A DNA stretch of 64,000 nucleotides from Enterobacter oligotrophicus. Its GTDB lineage: Bacteria > Pseudomonadota > Gammaproteobacteria > Enterobacterales > Enterobacteriaceae. Each line of letters begins with the position of its first letter. Position 1 is the stretch's first letter. The stretch spans positions 4,402,001 to 4,466,000 of the forward strand of contig NZ_AP019007.1 of NCBI RefSeq assembly GCF_009176645.1, in the 5' to 3' direction. Positions 16,746 to 24,653 of this stretch are shown in pieces. Made by a program: the position numbers and the translations under genes. A model generated the notes under the pieces. The model searched no databases. It had not been told where the DNA came from and saw only the letters and a list, made by a program, of their open reading frames with translations.

Positions 16746-17375
16746 TCAATATTTAGCAGGAAGTTTGTTGATTTTAATAAGCCTGCCTTCATCCATTTCG
16801 ATAAACCCGCCGGTTTTTAAATCCGCCAGAATTCGCATTACACCGCTACGGGAAAGTTGCGTTTTCTCTCTGATATACCTTTCCGCCGTTACGCTGCAAC
16901 GGTAGCTCTCATCTTCATCCATTAGCTTGATTAACTGTTGGCGAATCATCTCATACGCGGTCGGCGCACCCTGAGGCATTACGTTGTTATAAAGGCGGCC
17001 ATAGACAAACATCAGTTGCTTAGAGATAAGCCCCCATAACCCTTTTTCTTTGATGATTTCATTTGCCCGTTCGGTAGTGAGCACGCCGATCAGACAAGGG
17101 CTGACGGTTTTAAGATAGTCATTGAAGTAGGTGCCGGTAAGGTTAGCCAGGCCAAAAAGCGCGGGACTGCGCGCCGTTGAAAGCATCATGTTGTCGCTTC
17201 TTCGGTATACTGCAATCGTGCCTTCCGTAATTAAATAACACATTGCCTGGCCGTTTACCTGAAGGTCAAGTTGCTCACCGCGGCCTGTTCTGCGGGGAGT
17301 GCAGTATGGCCAGAAATGAGAAATAAGTTCCTGTGCATAAGGAGAACCGCGAAATGGCTGGTCTGAAGCGGACAT
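16746..17375 (-). CDS. IprA/CRP-like winged-helix transcription regulator, paralogue 1
   Basis: A 209-residue protein with an N-terminal cyclic-nucleotide-binding-like beta domain (about 30-125) and a C-terminal winged helix (about 145-205) with TQLSRSGVMRILADLKTGGFIEMD. The tail KINKLPAKY closely resembles the INRLPSEY end of E. coli IprA (YaiV), an atypical CRP-family regulator of oxidative-stress responses. The cAMP phosphate-binding RxS signature is not seen. Its C-terminal half is clearly homologous to the next gene upstream. Both face away from the fimbrial operon and are likely its regulators (inference). Confidence 0.82.
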   Translation of the reverse strand: MSASDQPFRGSPYAQELISHFWPYCTPRRTGRGEQLDLQVNGQAMCYLITEGTIAVYRRSDNMMLSTARSPALFGLANLTGTYFNDYLKTVSPCLIGVLTTERANEIIKEKGLWGLISKQLMFVYGRLYNNVMPQGAPTAYEMIRQQLIKLMDEDESYRCSVTAERYIREKTQLSRSGVMRILADLKTGGFIEMDEGRLIKINKLPAKY

Positions 17376-17452: not shown

Positions 17453-18112
17453 TCAGTACTTCCGCGGCAGGTGGTGGATATCAAGCAATACGCCGCGTTC
17501 CATTGTGATGTATTTTCCCGTGCGCAGCTCCGCCAGTATCCTCATAATACCGCTACGAGAGAGATAGGTTCGGCTTTTAATATAAGCAGCCGCGGTGATA
17601 TTTTGTCTTATTGCGTCAGGCTCTTGCATCAATTCCACAAGCTGAAAGCGAATGATGTCATAAGCAGACATCTGGGAAATTTGAGCGCAATGTTCATAAA
17701 CACGGGATGCAGTATAGATAAGCAGATTTGAGAAATGTTCCCAGAGATTATGCTCTGCAATCACACGATTAAAGCATTCCAGAGGTACGCTCGCTACCTC
17801 CGAGGTTTCAACCGCCCTGACATAAAGGTGCTCTGAAGATAATTGACTGCTTACGCCAAGAATAAACGGTGAGGACTCTGAATTCAAAACAATCCCGTCA
17901 CCGCGACGATGTAAAGCCACGCTGCCATGTATCAGCAAAAAACATTGACGAATTTCATTGTTGAAATAATGGATAATTTCACCTTTTGCAAGAATGAGCC
18001 GTTCAGTAAATGGAAGTACGTTATCAATTATTTTTTCAATGTGATTATAGGGCTTTAATCCAAGTACAGTAGATTGTTCATCGCCGAGTACAGGTGCGAT
18101 TCGCGTGTTCAT
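17453..18112 (-). CDS. IprA/CRP-like winged-helix transcription regulator, paralogue 2
   Basis: A 219-residue paralogue of the downstream gene. It has an N-terminal cNMP-like fold (about 35-130) including LLIHGSVALHRRGDG and a winged helix with TYLSRSGIMRILAELRTGKYITMERG and the same type of ending, DIHHLPRKY. The recognition-helix region LSRSG(I/V)MRILA is almost identical in both, so they may read the same DNA site. It is divergent from the fimbrial operon across 446 bases that hold three copies of AGTCTA-N4-TAGACC. The sites have the four-base spacer typical of FNR-type dyads. Confidence 0.82.
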   Translation of the reverse strand: MNTRIAPVLGDEQSTVLGLKPYNHIEKIIDNVLPFTERLILAKGEIIHYFNNEIRQCFLLIHGSVALHRRGDGIVLNSESSPFILGVSSQLSSEHLYVRAVETSEVASVPLECFNRVIAEHNLWEHFSNLLIYTASRVYEHCAQISQMSAYDIIRFQLVELMQEPDAIRQNITAAAYIKSRTYLSRSGIMRILAELRTGKYITMERGVLLDIHHLPRKY

Positions 18113-18196
18113 TGGTTACCTCGCCAGCAGAGACTATCTTTCTAATCGACCCAAGAATTATCTTAAAAACCAGCAACTCATGGAATATCAGGCGCG

Positions 18197-18212
18197 AGTC
18201 TAATAATAGACC
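18197..18212. promoter_or_regulatory. AGTCTA-N4-TAGACC box 1
   Basis: AGTCTA, four bases (ATAA), TAGACC. It sits in the divergent region between IprA-like gene 2 and the fimbrial operon. The 18-base context GAGTCTA...TAGACCT is shared exactly with box 3 outside the four spacer bases. Confidence 0.6.
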
Positions 18213-18261
18213 TACAGAAAAGAGGGTCTTAACCGTTTGAAATAATAGGTTTTGTTACGTC

Positions 18262-18277
18262 AGTCTAAAAGTGGACC
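18262..18277. promoter_or_regulatory. AGTCTA-N4-TGGACC box 2
   Basis: Same pattern as box 1 with one change in the right half (TGGACC) and spacer AAAG; starts 65 bases after box 1. Confidence 0.5.
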
Positions 18278-18334
18278 GTTTTTGGCGGGCTTGAGATTAT
18301 CCTAAATAATAATGTTTTATTTTTGTTAAATTCG

Positions 18335-18350
18335 AGTCTACAGCTAGACC
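18335..18350. promoter_or_regulatory. AGTCTA-N4-TAGACC box 3
   Basis: Exact copy of the box 1 half-sites with spacer CAGC; starts 73 bases after box 2 and 209 bases before the major fimbrial gene's start. A degenerate fourth copy, GTCTG-N4-TAGGG, lies at 18363-18376. Confidence 0.6.
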
Positions 18351-18558
18351 TCAAAACACATTGTCTGCAGGTAGGGAGTAGGATAAGTTTTATCAGGCCG
18401 ACAGGAGCGCCAGAAATTTATTGTATTAGCAATACTCATTTTGTTCTGTTTCTGTCTGCATATAAATAACAATGGACAAAACGCAAGTGGTGAATGAACC
18501 ATTAAATGTTTTTTGCCTGAATATCAGTAATAAATAAAGTAATACAGGATATGGCATC

Positions 18559-19089
18559 ATGAAAAAGAAAATTATCATTGCTATGCTCGCAGCAAGTTCT
18601 GCATTGACAATGACTCACGCTTTCGCAGCAGCGGGCACCGTGAATTTTAATGGAAATATTCTGGATTCTGCCTGTGATGTTGATGTGGCATCCCAGAACC
18701 AGGTAGTGGTGTTGGGGGATTATAATAAAACGGAATTTTCATCGACAGGTGCCAGAACGGCCGCGAAAAAATTCAATATTATTCTGAAAAACTGTCCGGT
18801 ATCAGTAACTACTGCAAAGGTGCGCTTTGACGGTACGCCTGATGTAACCAATAGCAGTTTGCTTGCTATTGATTCCTCCATTACTGGTGCGGCAACGGGT
18901 GTGGCGATTAACCTGATGACCGCAGATAAAGCCGATCTACCTCTTCATGATAACAACGGGTTCTCCTACGTGCTCAACAGCGCGACGGAAAATGTCCTTG
19001 ATTTTTATGCCCAGTATATTTCAACAGCGTCAGCGGTGACGGCGGGTCCGGCTAACGCAGTCGCTAATTTCTCTGTTGTTTACAACTAA
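18559..19089 (+). CDS. Major fimbrial subunit (FimA-like pilin)
   Basis: A 176-residue secreted pilin of the chaperone-usher class. A signal peptide of about 23 residues ends at HAFA. The mature N-terminus AAGTVNFNGNILDSAC has the alternating hydrophobic donor strand and first conserved Cys; the second Cys is in LKNCPVS. The C-terminus ends with the pilin pattern ANFSVVYN (aromatic penultimate). AGGA lies nine bases before the ATG. It is first in a five-gene operon and should be the shaft subunit, assembled outside the outer membrane. The promoter is within the 446-base AT-rich upstream region. Confidence 0.9.
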   Translation: MKKKIIIAMLAASSALTMTHAFAAAGTVNFNGNILDSACDVDVASQNQVVVLGDYNKTEFSSTGARTAAKKFNIILKNCPVSVTTAKVRFDGTPDVTNSSLLAIDSSITGAATGVAINLMTADKADLPLHDNNGFSYVLNSATENVLDFYAQYISTASAVTAGPANAVANFSVVYN

Positions 19090-19148
19090 GCCATTTGCAG
19101 CAATTAAAAGGGGGGCCTTCCCGGCCCCTTTGTTTTATGAGGAATCAC

Positions 19149-19826
19149 ATGCGTTTTATCAGAACAATCGGGTTGGCCGCGGTATCGTTACCGCTAATAT
19201 TTTCAGGGGCCAATGCCGGAGTGATTATTGGCGGCACGCGTATCATTTTTGATGGTGCGAAAAAGGAAGCGTCAATAGGTGTCACTAACCCTGACAGCAC
19301 TCCGTATTTAATTCAGTCCTGGATTGATTTAAAAGACGGTCATTCTGGTAAAACGCCTTTTATTATCACACCACCTTTATACCGTCTGGATGGCGGGCAA
19401 CAAAACGTGGAACGTATCGTGATGACAGGAACCTTGCCGCAGGATAAAGAAACGTTGTTCTGGCTAAATATTAAAGCCATTCCGGCTGCATCCAGCCAGG
19501 CTAATTCTCTGCAAATCGCCGTTAAAACACGAATTAAGCTCATTTATCGGCCTGAGGATCTTCGCGCGTCAACACCGGAAGAGCAAGCGACGAAATTAAC
19601 CTGGCAAAGAACAGGAAATGAACTTCAGGTCACTAACCCAACACGCTATGTGATCAATTTTAATGAAGTGAGTGTTGGCGGCCAAAACATTGACGATGTG
19701 ACATATGTTTTGCCAGGAGAGTCAGCCCGCTTCCCATTACCCGCAGGGGCTCGTGGCAACTCGCTCATATTTAAAATTATCAACGACTATGGCAGCCCCG
19801 GAAAACCACATCAAGCCAGCTTGTGA
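19149..19826 (+). CDS. Periplasmic fimbrial chaperone (PapD/FimC family)
   Basis: A 225-residue chaperone that caps pilin subunits by donor-strand complementation. A signal peptide ends at SGANA, followed by GVIIGGTRIIFDGAKKEASIGVTNPD, the usual G1-type start. The subunit-binding Arg in GGTRII and Lys in KTRIKLIYRPEDL are visible. The family hallmark IKLIYRP is at about 140. The start was set at MRFIRTIG because GAGGA precedes it by seven bases; an upstream in-frame start lacks a signal sequence. It follows the pilin by 59 bases, a C/G-rich possible attenuator (GGGGGCC...GGCCCC) between them. Confidence 0.9.
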   Translation: MRFIRTIGLAAVSLPLIFSGANAGVIIGGTRIIFDGAKKEASIGVTNPDSTPYLIQSWIDLKDGHSGKTPFIITPPLYRLDGGQQNVERIVMTGTLPQDKETLFWLNIKAIPAASSQANSLQIAVKTRIKLIYRPEDLRASTPEEQATKLTWQRTGNELQVTNPTRYVINFNEVSVGGQNIDDVTYVLPGESARFPLPAGARGNSLIFKIINDYGSPGKPHQASL

Positions 19827-19867
19827 GTTTTAAAAGCGGCGCTTCTGTACTGATTAGGCTTATAACA

Positions 19868-22408
19868 ATGACAATAAAAAATAATAAGATGCGGCCTGCT
19901 CGCCTGGCGACGTATATCGCCATCGCGCTTACAGGTTCTGCACAGCCTCTGTATGCCAGCGAGACGTTTAATTCCGAACTGGTTGAACTGGATAATCCTG
20001 GTATGGGCAGGGCAGATTTATCTGCCTTTGAATCAGGATCGCAGATGCCTGGAACGTACCATGTTGACGTCATTCTTGACGACCAGTTAATCGAGACCGT
20101 TGATATCCCCTTTAATACCCTTAAAGGCGTTGATGACAATGAAAAATTGCAGCCTTGCCTGAGTGTGGAACAGCTCAAACGCTGGGGAGTGAAAACCGAT
20201 CTTTTTCCTGATATTGCAGCCGATAACAGTGTTTGCGCTAATCTTCAGGCAATTCCACAAGCCAGCACAGATTTTCAGTTTGGCACTCAGCGGCTGGTCA
20301 TCAGTATCCCCCAGGCTGCAATTAGCCTGCCTGCAAGAGGCTCTGTACCGCCGGAGATGTGGGATGAGGGTATACAGGCTGCAATGCTCAATTACAGTCT
20401 GAGTGGCGCGAACAATTGGGCGAAAACGCGCAATGGCACTAACAGCGATAGCCAGTACGCAAACCTGCGTCCGGGGATAAATATTGGCCCGTGGCGTTTA
20501 CGAAATTACTCCACGTGGTCGCGTGATGCATCCGGCCAGGATCAATGGGACACCGTCTATACCTACGTTCAGCGTGCCATTATTCCCCTGAAAGCGCAGC
20601 TAACGGTAGGGGACAGCACTGCGCCTGCCGATGTGTTTGACAGCATGCCTTTTCGTGGTGGACAACTGGCATCGGACGACGACATGCTGCCAGACTCACT
20701 GAAAGGCTATGCGCCGGTGGTACGCGGTATCGCGCGTACCAATGCTCAGGTTGTGGTGCGCCAGAACGGGTATCAGATTTATCAAAGCTATGTCTCGCCT
20801 GGCGCGTTTGAAATTGTGGACATGTATCCCACCGGAGGCGCAGGGGATCTTGAGGTGACGATTAAAGAAGCCGATGGAAGCGAGCAACATTTCACTCTGC
20901 CTTATGCCTCGCTGCCCGTATTGCAGCGTGAGGGTCGGCTGAAATATGCCCTCACCGGAGGACAATATCGCTCATATAACAGCAGTGTGGATAAGACCCC
21001 GTTTGAACAAATCACCGGAATATATGGCCTGAAGCATGGCATTACCCTCTACGGGGGGCTGCAGGAATCAAGCAAATATCAGTCGCTTGCTTTCGGTACA
21101 GGTAAAAACATGGGCGATTTTGGCGCACTGTCCGCAGACGTGATCCAGGCATGGTCCACACCGAATAAAACAGCAAAAACGCGCGGCCAGTCCTGGCGAG
21201 CGCGTTACAGCAAGAACTTTGTGAATAGCGGGACGAATTTTTCCATTGCGGGATACCGCTATTCGACCAGTGGCTATTACGGGATGCAGGACGTGCTGGA
21301 TTCATACGGGGACAGCACTGCACTGCAGGACAGAAGACGTAACCGTGCGGAGCTGACAATGAGCCAGACGCTGGGGGGACGCCTCGGCGCTCTGACGCTT
21401 AGCGCTGCGCGTGAAGATTACTGGAATTCCCCTCAATCGATGGTCTCCTGGAGCGTCGGATACAACAATTACTGGCACAACATCAGCTATGGCGTGACAT
21501 GGACATACAGTAAAAACAGCCACTCTGCCTCAAATAACGGGAGCGCTAAAACCTATGATCACGATCAGCTTCTGGCTTTTAATGTCAGCGTGCCGTTGGA
21601 GAAATTCCTGCCGCAAACCTGGGCTAACTATGGCGTGAACGCGAGCAAGGATCGCGGCACGACGCACAATATTGGTATGAACGGCGTGGCGCTGGAGAAC
21701 CGGGCTCTGAGCTGGAACATGCAACAGGGTTACGGTACGGATGGCGTGGGTTATACAGGTAATGTAAACGGTGACTATAAAGGAACATACGGCGAAGCCT
21801 CGGCGGGGTATAGCTACGATAAAAACAGTACACGTCTGAATTATGGTTTGCAGGGTGGGATCATCCTTCATGGTGACGGTGTGACACTCTCTCAGCCGCT
21901 GGGGGAAACAAATGTACTGGTAAAAGCACCTGGCGCTCATGGCGTGGATATTCGAAATCAGCCGGGTGTCCGCACGGATTACAAAGGCTATACGGTGGTG
22001 AGCAATCTTTCAGTTTACCGGAAAAATGACGTTATTCTCGATCCGGAAAATATGCCTGACGATGTTGAGCTGGACATCAATACCCGAACGGTAATACCGA
22101 CGCGGGGAGCGCTGGTTAAAGCCGAATACATATCTAAAGTGGGTCGCCGGGTTCTGATGACCTTATCGGATAATAACCATTTTGTTCCATTTGGCGCGGT
22201 GGTCACGCTCTCAGGTGATAGCCAGAGCAGTTTTATCGTGGGCGATCGCGGACAGGTGTACTTAACGGGTATGCGCGAGCAGGGAGCAATATTAGCAACA
22301 TGGGGAAATCAACCTGGTCAACGGTGTCGGGCTGAGTTCAGCTTGCCAAAACAATCATCTTATGGGGGCATAACAGAAGTAAACGCACAGTGCCTTCAGG
22401 ACCGTTAA
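19868..22408 (+). CDS. Outer-membrane fimbrial usher (PapC/FimD family)
   Basis: An 846-residue outer-membrane usher that receives chaperone-subunit complexes and extrudes the fimbria. After a signal peptide ending at PLYA come the N-terminal periplasmic domain (FNSELVELDN...), the 24-strand barrel with plug (GAFEIVDMYPTGGAGDLEVTIKEADGS, about 310-335), and two C-terminal domains ending in a Cys pair (GQRCRAEF and VNAQCLQ). The ATG at MTIKNNKMRP was preferred to a GTG overlapping the chaperone stop, because the latter has no ribosome site; the GTG would add 15 residues. The length is normal for the family. Confidence 0.92.
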   Translation: MTIKNNKMRPARLATYIAIALTGSAQPLYASETFNSELVELDNPGMGRADLSAFESGSQMPGTYHVDVILDDQLIETVDIPFNTLKGVDDNEKLQPCLSVEQLKRWGVKTDLFPDIAADNSVCANLQAIPQASTDFQFGTQRLVISIPQAAISLPARGSVPPEMWDEGIQAAMLNYSLSGANNWAKTRNGTNSDSQYANLRPGINIGPWRLRNYSTWSRDASGQDQWDTVYTYVQRAIIPLKAQLTVGDSTAPADVFDSMPFRGGQLASDDDMLPDSLKGYAPVVRGIARTNAQVVVRQNGYQIYQSYVSPGAFEIVDMYPTGGAGDLEVTIKEADGSEQHFTLPYASLPVLQREGRLKYALTGGQYRSYNSSVDKTPFEQITGIYGLKHGITLYGGLQESSKYQSLAFGTGKNMGDFGALSADVIQAWSTPNKTAKTRGQSWRARYSKNFVNSGTNFSIAGYRYSTSGYYGMQDVLDSYGDSTALQDRRRNRAELTMSQTLGGRLGALTLSAAREDYWNSPQSMVSWSVGYNNYWHNISYGVTWTYSKNSHSASNNGSAKTYDHDQLLAFNVSVPLEKFLPQTWANYGVNASKDRGTTHNIGMNGVALENRALSWNMQQGYGTDGVGYTGNVNGDYKGTYGEASAGYSYDKNSTRLNYGLQGGIILHGDGVTLSQPLGETNVLVKAPGAHGVDIRNQPGVRTDYKGYTVVSNLSVYRKNDVILDPENMPDDVELDINTRTVIPTRGALVKAEYISKVGRRVLMTLSDNNHFVPFGAVVTLSGDSQSSFIVGDRGQVYLTGMREQGAILATWGNQPGQRCRAEFSLPKQSSYGGITEVNAQCLQDR

Positions 22409-22409
22409 A

Positions 22410-23357
22410 ATGAAAATTGCAACCTTTATATTTTTGCTGTGTTCGTTTACTGGCTGGAATATTGCCTATGCCGGAACCTGTACAACGATTACGCCGCAAC
22501 TTTCTACGCTGTCTGTCGGTACGATTAACGTTCAGCGCGATACACCTGTCGGTACAGTGATATTTTCCCGTGCAGCGACAAGGACAACTTCGTATTTAAC
22601 GGGGTGTACCAATCCGTTAATGTTGGGATTCAGTATGCGGTATAATAGTGCAATACCGAGTGGTTTTGGCAACCACGTATATGCCACTAATATCAGTGGC
22701 ATTGGAATACGGTTTTCCTCCGGGAATTACTTTGAAAGTCCGAATAATACATTTACGTATAACGCCCAGACATCCTATGTCGAATGGTTTGGCGGAAAGA
22801 TTGAATTGATTGTAACCGGCCCGGTGTCGTCAGGCGTATTAATGCCTGGTGTTATTGGCGTAGTTATGCTGCAGGGGGCTGATGGAGTTTACCGTGAAGG
22901 TCTCACCACGCAGCTTAACGATGGGACTATCAACGCGCTGGCATGCAGTATCAGTTCGTCTCAGTTAACGTTTCCGATGGGTGATATTCCTGTTTCAATG
23001 TTCGGTTCTGTTGTGGGAACAACGCCGGCAGGGGCGCAGAATACGCAAAATCTGGGACTAAGTTGTTCCGCCGGAACCAATATCAACGTTTCACTGAGTG
23101 GTATACAAAACCCGGATGTGGCTGATACAAGCGTAATGGCGTTAACAGGACAAGGGAATGCAGGTACGGCAAAAGGCGTTGGTGTGCAGCTTTTATATAA
23201 CGGTTCACCGTTGGTCATGAATAGCCGGATTCTGTTAAAACAATCTGCGGGTGGGCAAGAGACGTTACCATTAACGGCTCGCTATTATCAAACGTTAACG
23301 ACCATTGAACCGGGCTCAGCAAATGCCTCAGCAACGCTGACGTTGACCTACCAGTAA
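22410..23357 (+). CDS. Putative two-domain fimbrial tip adhesin
   Basis: A 315-residue secreted protein with a signal peptide ending at IAYA. The N-terminal half (about 22-175) has its own cysteines and no pilin donor strand, consistent with a receptor-binding lectin domain. The C-terminal half (about 178-315) looks like a pilin domain: a Cys in LACSISSSQ, another in LSCSAGTN, and the ending ATLTLTYQ. This matches FimH-type tip adhesins. It begins one base after the usher stop. The binding specificity cannot be read from sequence, and the lectin half is unfamiliar to me. Confidence 0.78.
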   Translation: MKIATFIFLLCSFTGWNIAYAGTCTTITPQLSTLSVGTINVQRDTPVGTVIFSRAATRTTSYLTGCTNPLMLGFSMRYNSAIPSGFGNHVYATNISGIGIRFSSGNYFESPNNTFTYNAQTSYVEWFGGKIELIVTGPVSSGVLMPGVIGVVMLQGADGVYREGLTTQLNDGTINALACSISSSQLTFPMGDIPVSMFGSVVGTTPAGAQNTQNLGLSCSAGTNINVSLSGIQNPDVADTSVMALTGQGNAGTAKGVGVQLLYNGSPLVMNSRILLKQSAGGQETLPLTARYYQTLTTIEPGSANASATLTLTYQ

Positions 23358-23368
23358 CAGGTGAGATA

Positions 23369-23881
23369 ATGCAAATGCAATATAAGAAATTCCTTTTTCT
23401 CGCTTTATTGTGCTGGAACGTCTATGCCGCAGACGGGGTGAATGTCAGCGTCACGGGAAATATTGTGGCCTCGCCCTGTGTATTTAACGGCGGGAATTCA
23501 AATCTTGATGTTAACCTTGGGAATATTCAGGCGATAAATATGGCGACGCCAGGGTCAACGTCCGATCCGGTCACATTTAATTTCGTGTTTACCCATTGTC
23601 CGGTGGGTACGCGTACCGTCACCGCCAGCTTTACCGGAACGCCCGATCCTGTTGCTGGCGCGGACTATTATATGAACAGCGGTTCGGCCACCAATGTTGC
23701 GGTGGCAATGAGAGAGCGGGCGTCTGGCATACTCAAGGGGACGGGTTCCAGCATCTCACAAAACATCGCGGCAGACAGAACCGCAACTATGCCAATGCAG
23801 GCGTTGGTTAAATCTGTATCGGGTGGGGTAGCGCCAGGAAGCATAAGTGCAGTTGTGATGGTTACGCTGCAATACAATTAA
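23369..23881 (+). CDS. Minor fimbrial subunit
   Basis: A 170-residue pilin-fold protein with a signal peptide ending at VYAA. The mature start GVNVSVTGNIVASPCVFNGG has a donor-strand pattern and the first Cys; the second Cys is in THCPVGT. The C-terminal segment ends VVMVTLQYN. It is last of the structural genes, 11 bases after the adhesin, so an adaptor or terminator subunit role is likely. Two nearby ATGs (MQMQYKK) are possible starts; the second would shorten it by two residues. Confidence 0.85.
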   Translation: MQMQYKKFLFLALLCWNVYAADGVNVSVTGNIVASPCVFNGGNSNLDVNLGNIQAINMATPGSTSDPVTFNFVFTHCPVGTRTVTASFTGTPDPVAGADYYMNSGSATNVAVAMRERASGILKGTGSSISQNIAADRTATMPMQALVKSVSGGVAPGSISAVVMVTLQYN

Positions 23882-23930: not shown

Positions 23931-24653
23931 ATGTTGAATATTTTGATTAAAGAAACGGATCTGTTTTTTAGAGCCGGATTACAATATTTTCTTGTGGATT
24001 TCTTTTCCCGTAATTTTAAACATCATCTCCACTTTAACTATGTATTTACGGCTGACAGCGTCAGTATGGCCGATATTGTCGTTCTTTCTTTATGTAATGG
24101 TGAAATGCTGACCTGCTTCCCTGAGTTTAAAAACCGGAAAAAAGGCATTGTGATAGGGTTGGTTGACGATGCGTTTCGCTTCCAGGCGATGTCATCCTGT
24201 TTTCAGGATATTATATTTATTTCCCGTAACGCTTCTCTTGACCAGGTGAGCGAGACGCTCTTTATTGCATGGCTTAAAATGCAATTACCCGGATATAGCT
24301 GGAATAAAAATACCTGTCTGAATTGTCAACATAGAGTCTTATCACCACAGCAAGTCAGAATTATGGTGAGTTTTTACCGGGGTTTATCAGTTATGCAAAT
24401 AGCTGACGCGTTGCGGATAAGCGATAAAACGGTATTTACCCATAAATATATTTTGATGCAGAAATTTGACCTGCGAAGCGATTATGAACTGATCGCTTTG
24501 CTCAACAGGCTGGTTGCAAAAAACAGTCACCCTAACGTTTTCCGTGACTATCTGGAAAAAGATTTCAGTGAAGAAAGCGATGCAGAAACGTCTGTACGTC
24601 AGGCCTGCGGTGGGGAGACTGCGGCAGGCGAAGAATCACAGAGCGTGAGGTGA
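23931..24653 (+). CDS. LuxR-type DNA-binding regulator of the fimbrial cluster
   Basis: A 240-residue protein with a LuxR/FixJ-type helix-turn-helix near 140-195 (LSPQQVRIMVSFYRGLSVMQIADALRISDKTVFTHKY). The N-terminal 120 residues resemble a degenerate receiver fold, but the expected phospho-acceptor Asp context is not evident. A charged tail of about 40 residues follows the HTH. It lies 49 bases after the last fimbrial subunit on the same strand, so it may be co-transcribed and give feedback control of the fimbriae or of motility. That role is inferred from placement only. Confidence 0.78.
   Translation: MLNILIKETDLFFRAGLQYFLVDFFSRNFKHHLHFNYVFTADSVSMADIVVLSLCNGEMLTCFPEFKNRKKGIVIGLVDDAFRFQAMSSCFQDIIFISRNASLDQVSETLFIAWLKMQLPGYSWNKNTCLNCQHRVLSPQQVRIMVSFYRGLSVMQIADALRISDKTVFTHKYILMQKFDLRSDYELIALLNRLVAKNSHPNVFRDYLEKDFSEESDAETSVRQACGGETAAGEESQSVR

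Follow-up and report, generated by a model that had tools for sequence, protein, structure and literature searches.

A dedicated regulator encoded beside a chaperone-usher operon is a known arrangement, and the PapB-, FimZ- and FimW-type local regulators share it with RegB, the protein on which the present analysis centres. Both the protein families and the operators of these regulators differ from those of RegB. In Klebsiella pneumoniae, KpfR is likewise an HTH regulator whose gene stands beside the fimbrial cluster that it controls (PMC7861041, in the portion consulted).

By family, the protein to compare is IprA (YaiV), the hydrogen peroxide resistance inhibitor of enteric bacteria, which shares with RegB and with a second regulator of the locus, RegA, the HTH_46 domain and a weak cyclic-nucleotide-binding match. 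According to the consulted portions of two papers, IprA affects fimbrial expression in Salmonella (PMC6527747; PMC12502779), and its deletion lowers the expression of fim and raises that of stbA (PMC6527747). We found no operator for IprA-like proteins in the literature searched, a scope that left the primary iprA paper outside. No description of the fimbrial switch considered below was found in that literature either, including the consulted portions of PMC12502779, PMC7861041, PMC6527747, PMC9820224 and PMC11408624.

Here we analyse a window of Enterobacter oligotrophicus DNA, i.e. the whole stretch of 64,000 nucleotides to which the positions below refer. A preliminary description, made from the letters alone, had noticed three similar boxes between tandem IprA-like regulator genes and a fimbrial operon. 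It had proposed a dedicated on/off switch, perhaps with the two regulators competing for the same sites.

Regulators and fimbrial genes

Table 1. Regulator genes, boxes, predicted promoter elements and fimbrial genes in the window. RegA and RegB are labels of this analysis; a dot marks features without strand.
Feature	Position	Strand	Details
RegA, second IprA-like (HTH_46) regulator, downstream of RegB	16746..17375	-	HTH_46 87.3 bits
RegB, IprA-like CRP-fold (predicted) regulator, divergent from the fimbrial operon	17453..18112	-	HTH_46 92.2 bits
Predicted regB -10, GATAAT	18157..18162	-	Distance to box 1 identical in 15 of the 19 tabulated loci
Predicted weak regB -35, TTCCAT	18180..18185	-	12 bases from box 1, 17 from -10
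Box 1, GTCTAATAATAGAC	18198-18211	.	Centre at about -54.5 of the predicted regB start
Box 2, GTCTAAAAGTGGAC	18263-18276	.	Start to start, 65 bases from box 1 and 73 from box 3
Box 3, GTCTACAGCTAGAC	18336-18349	.	Centre at about -53.5 of the predicted fimbrial start
Predicted fimbrial -35, TTGTCT	18361..18366	+	All 19 loci tabulated have TTG at 10 or 11 bases from box 3
Predicted fimbrial -10, TAAGTT	18384..18389	+	17 bases after -35
Major fimbrial subunit	18559..19089	+	PF00419 78.1 bits
Fimbrial chaperone	19095..19826 (listed ORF; the actual start is probably downstream of 19095)	+	PapD_N, PapD_C
Fimbrial usher	19823..22408	+	PF00577 637.9 bits
Fimbrial protein with MrkD-like receptor-binding domain, probable tip adhesin	22410..23357	+	PF22003 40.2 bits, PF00419 52.3 bits
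Minor fimbrial subunit	23369..23881	+	PF00419 53.2 bits
LuxR-type HTH protein, end of the fimbrial cluster	23931..24653	+	GerE 45.2 bits

The earlier assignment of the two adjacent regulators as IprA-like holds, since both carry an HTH_46 winged helix well over the Pfam gathering cut-off of 29.3 bits (Table 1). Their recognition helices, LSRSGVMRILADL and LSRSGIMRILAEL, are nearly the same, as had also been noticed. Neither protein is IprA itself: against the NCBIfam IprA equivalog NF008810, with its cut-off of 359, RegA scores 75.4 and RegB 73.3 bits. The same genome encodes a separate, closer relative of IprA (L009; 247.7 bits, also below that cut-off), whose recognition helix is a different one and whose 500 upstream bases contain no box.

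The Pfam cNMP_binding match lies below its cut-off in both regulators (26.9 against 27.5 in the fold test of RegB). In the AlphaFold2 model of RegB the mean pLDDT is 86.9, and the best Foldseek matches of the model are CRP (E 3.8e-11, TM 0.69/0.75). The predicted fold is that of the CRP/FNR superfamily, with a beta-barrel, a long helix and a winged HTH. An HMM alignment to CRP chains indicates that E72, R82 and S83, the cAMP contacts of CRP, are not kept in the RegB family; judging from these positions, RegB would not sense cAMP in the CRP manner. FNR is an Fe-S oxygen sensor with an N-terminal cysteine cluster, and inspection of the N-terminal part of RegB revealed no cluster of this type.

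Three boxes in the regB-fimbrial intergenic region

The three boxes had been correctly located: with the strict motif that they share, GTCTA-N4-TRGAC, they start at 18198, 18263 and 18336. Boxes 1 and 3 are indeed identical outside the spacer, over 15 bases by our count and not 14 as given before. A weaker fourth copy, suggested at 18363, had to be given up, since it runs into the predicted fimbrial -35 and none of the aligned relatives has an equivalent. The geometry had been called FNR-type. The FNR operator is a 14-bp dyad with a four-base spacer and TTGAT half-sites, and half-sites of the superfamily are TGTGA or TTGAT. Thus, the N4 spacing agrees with this assignment, but the half-site, GTCTA, is not that of FNR.

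As originally formulated, with up to two mismatches on both strands, the motif is only weakly unusual in the window (5 matches against 1.39 expected), and 4 of 100 shuffles of the window also reach 5. GTCYA-N4-TRGAC, in contrast, occurs three times in the 64 kb, where shuffled windows average 0.105. Three strict boxes within 160 bp were seen in none of 400 shuffled windows, and at least two in none of 5000 shuffles of the intergenic region; the shuffles rule out chance as the origin of the boxes. The perfect palindrome GTCTA-N4-TAGAC occurs at three places in the 4.48-Mb genome, two of them at this locus, and the genome has two other matches with TGGAC as the second half-site (L001, L003).

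Conservation among RegB loci

Of 61 genus genomes searched for relatives of RegB, 52 had a match at E 1e-20, many of these matches being paralogues. For the conservation set we took the 30 best RegB loci, our own included, and the pattern GTCnA-N4-TnGAC. A lack of conservation in orthologous loci had been named beforehand as a result that would refute the proposal, and this refutation clearly fails: in all 30 of these best loci boxes are kept between RegB and the fimbrial subunit, three in 27 of them and two in the others (L016, L036, L040). Across the 27 three-box loci, boxes 1 and 2 are 64 to 68 bases apart, and the starts of boxes 2 and 3 are separated by 72 to 75 bases in 22 loci and by 93 to 115 in 5; the two boxes of L040 are 54 bases apart. 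Within the 21 loci of commonest spacing the half-sites are 98% identical, whereas identity is 46% over the 51-base spacer from box 1 to box 2. This contrast between box and spacer rules out simple relatedness as the cause of box conservation. Since the boxes stayed near letter-perfect while the DNA around them drifted, they are very probably docking sites of a dedicated regulator, and that they are operators we regard as nearly certain. Other short elements of the region are conserved as well, namely TGTT...GTTAA before box 3 (window 18311-18330) and TAA...TGAA between boxes 1 and 2.

We also annotated 20 further stretches with weaker, lost or broken RegB relatives. In six of them a RegB-like gene adjoins a fimbrial subunit of this kind: L059 with two boxes, the more distant L058, L064 and L065 with one strict box each, which lacks the promoter spacing of box 3, and L060 and L061 (regB at 55% and 52%), in which RegB-like and fimbrial genes are accompanied by no strict box. 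The other 14 have no strict box near the regulator, and an HTH_46 regulator near other fimbrial genes comes without a box in L053 and L054. The close RegB group thus follows the box rule, which is obeyed less regularly outside it. In G022 (L055:3105-5364) a deletion through the fimbrial genes has left only the end of regB, the minor-subunit gene and the LuxR-type gene, and regA is intact. L068 probably duplicates L028.

Exclusiveness of close box pairs

The preliminary description had asked whether the motif occurs only upstream of this fimbrial type. For close pairs, defined as two boxes 48 to 78 bases apart, this is the case within the family: they occur in 5 of 392 family genomes, and all 5 lie between a RegB-like gene and a fimbrial subunit. 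Single boxes, on the other hand, are also found elsewhere. A scan of 84,980 species genomes, which may omit records of genomes very near the window, returned 32 stretches with a close pair. The 17 of these that are beside a RegB-like gene are all from Enterobacteriaceae, and for 15 of them the fetched stretch includes the fimbrial subunit as well. The remaining 15 stretches come from other bacteria and gave no match to the 13 proteins queried; several of them resemble tandem repeats. Among named records, the locus is found in Enterobacter, Lelliottia, Leclercia, Klebsiella, Franconibacter and kin. The conservation, family-pair and species-scan counts are based on overlapping genome sets and so are not independent.

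Perfect palindromes are rare in the 61 genomes, with 0 to 5 per genome as opposed to 2 to 15 for the backward control. A wide regulon was rejected on account of this rarity; the recurrent sites among the matches listed are to be taken as a minimum. Another box, GTCTAAGGATAGAC or its complement, lies just upstream of a different reading frame in at least G022, G027, G028 and G030 (L116, L119, near 1501).

Predicted promoters and their distance to the boxes

Promoter-like elements were tabulated for 19 of 26 intergenic regions. We omitted L016 and L036 (third box not strict), L058, L064 and L065 (another locus type, with one box) and L060 and L061 (no strict box). The transcription starts behind the values of -53.5 and -54.5 are predicted ones. 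On the fimbrial side, the distance from box 3 to TTG is 10 bases in 4 of the tabulated loci and 11 in 15, and the -10 reads TA[AG]ATT in 18 of 19, the window being alone with TAAGTT. On the regB side, the -10 GATAAT is one base off in L043 and was not found in L040, L042 and L059, and the -35 begins with TTCC in 11 of 19 loci. We also searched 394 genomes of the order for a composite in which the box is followed after 10 or 11 bases by TTG and then, at promoter distance, by TARATT. It is present in 3 of them, each time at a place that matches a RegB locus, and its backward control in none. Our own genome, with TAAGTT as its -10, is therefore missing from these hits.

The boxes leave all predicted -35 and -10 elements free, and the two promoters appear weak. 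A centre at -53.5 fits neither of the standard CRP positions, class I or class II. The spacings between the boxes are suggestive of helical phasing but not decisive.

The box of a pdeA-like gene

Outside the RegB locus the genome has a single perfect palindrome (G000:C1:1091164-1091177, i.e. L002:1501-1514; L205), which lies 77 bases upstream of the listed TTG start of a pdeA-like gene encoding MASE1, degenerate GGDEF and EAL domains, and adjoins tRNA-Ala genes. The corresponding stretch was matched in 44 of 61 genomes, and G040 was dropped, its match being 32 bases at a contig end. The box is intact (GTCYA-N4-TRGAC) in 31 of the 43 aligned genus genomes. An intact RegB orthologue is present in 20 of these 31 and missing from 11. 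Because of the latter 11, another protein may read the same sequence. The promoter-like stretch flanking the box is conserved more widely than the box itself, and no similar DNA was matched in E. coli. An L010-type regulator was considered as the reader of this box and rejected, as its presence does not track the box.

Loci lacking one of the regulators

In L050, L051 and L052 a RegA orthologue (70 to 75%) is kept in the same chromosomal place, and the stretches have no regB, no fimbrial genes, no LuxR-type gene and no box of any kind. The LuxR-type gene is thus missing together with the fimbrial genes. The regB-fimbriae-LuxR block is missing between a formate dehydrogenase-like gene and the intact regA; the block is an island that was gained or lost. 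L042, and L091 from Enterobacter sp. ENT03 with the same arrangement, have boxes, RegB and fimbriae and no RegA in the stretch, and L058 and L064 have one regulator, one box and no RegA gene in the stretch fetched. The occurrence of the boxes thus follows that of RegB and the fimbriae. A recognition helix of the RegB type is in itself no sufficient sign of boxes, as seen for example in L053 and L066.

Discussion

Given that the boxes occur without RegA, and that RegA persists without boxes where RegB and the fimbriae are missing, RegB is the likelier reader. We strongly infer that it is RegB that reads the boxes, and consider this probable on the grounds of sequence comparison. The idea of a dedicated switch is upheld to the extent that the operators are tied to the RegB-fimbriae pair, by their conservation and by the exclusiveness of close pairs. 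We propose that a RegB dimer would occupy each 14-bp box. From box 3 it would activate the weak fimbrial promoter and from box 1 its own weak promoter, and box 2 would, at a guess, probably serve cooperative binding or bridging. Positive feedback by RegB would then result in on/off behaviour. That RegB binds the boxes and activates both promoters in this manner seems to us, from the sequence, slightly better supported than not. The activation of both promoters is itself a guess from position, held at odds a little to somewhat above even. Supporting activation, boxes 1 and 3 stand upstream of promoter-like elements at nearly equal distances, and the absence of boxes over the predicted core promoter elements favours activation over simple blocking. 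Several observations speak against the proposed reading, namely the RegB-like loci with no strict box (L060, L061) or a single one (L058, L064, L065), the HTH_46 regulators of L053 and L054 that have no box near their fimbrial genes, the RegB-like helix in loci such as L053 and L066, the regB -10 not found in L040, L042 and L059, the non-standard position of -53.5 and the pdeA-like box in the 11 genomes lacking an intact RegB orthologue.

The opposite sign of regulation would be a doubtful alternative, in which RegB bound to the boxes represses both promoters, either by loops bridging boxes 1, 2 and 3 or by blocking the alpha-CTD region upstream of the -35s. Three sites about 65 and 73 bp apart in most loci, placed between divergent promoters, would suit looping, and KpfR, another local fimbrial regulator, is reported to be a repressor (PMC7861041, portion consulted). 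However, repression agrees poorly with boxes that leave the predicted -35 and -10 free at promoters that already look weak, and with the variable distance between boxes 2 and 3 (72 to 115 across the 27 loci with three boxes; 54 in L040, which has two). The iprA precedent, too, is positive for fim (PMC6527747, portion consulted). As to the identity of the reader, RegA may share the boxes with RegB, either competing for them or binding as a heterodimer, as their nearly identical recognition helices and the tandem genes on one strand would suggest. We consider this unlikely: boxes without RegA (L042/L091, L058, L064) and RegA without boxes (L050-L052) speak against it, and the competition suggested in the preliminary description finds no support.

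Two readings take the pdeA-like box into account, and both appear improbable to us. In one of them a core regulator of the genus reads the fimbrial boxes as well as the pdeA-like box, and RegB acts elsewhere. It has in its favour the 31 of 43 aligned genomes with the pdeA-like box intact, 11 of which have no intact RegB orthologue. Yet within the family close box pairs are found only beside RegB-like genes, and the fimbrial boxes are kept in G013, G045 and G031, which have no intact pdeA-like box. In addition, the pdeA-like box does not go together with the HTH_46 protein of L010: G007 has the box and no L010 relative at E 1e-20. In the other, equally improbable reading, GTCTA-N4-TAGAC would be the operator of an HTH_46 sub-family. 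RegB would form a positive-feedback switch of the fimbriae, possibly bistable, by way of the three operators, and the pdeA-like box, read by RegB in genomes that have it and by a paralogue in the others, would couple the fimbriae to c-di-GMP turnover.

With activation by RegB as the preferred reading, the locus provides a precise and strongly conserved operator for an IprA-like regulator of predicted CRP fold, assigned to one chaperone-usher fimbria. This brings a little-known regulator group within direct reach of experiment, by means ranging from a 14-bp probe to a two-promoter reporter. Compared with the known systems, RegB has the common fold of the CRP/FNR superfamily (predicted) and a 14-bp two-fold operator with N4 spacing like that of FNR. 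It differs from CRP in not keeping the cAMP-contact residues, and from FNR in having no N-terminal cysteine cluster. RegA and RegB are set apart from IprA by scores far below the equivalog cut-off. Unlike RegB, KpfR is co-transcribed with kpf and not divergent from it, is reported to act as a repressor and has a Fur box inside its gene (PMC7861041, in the portion consulted). A local divergent regulator with its own operators before a fimbrial operon is of a known kind; here the regulator comes from the IprA-like proteins, a group for which the literature searched yielded no operator.
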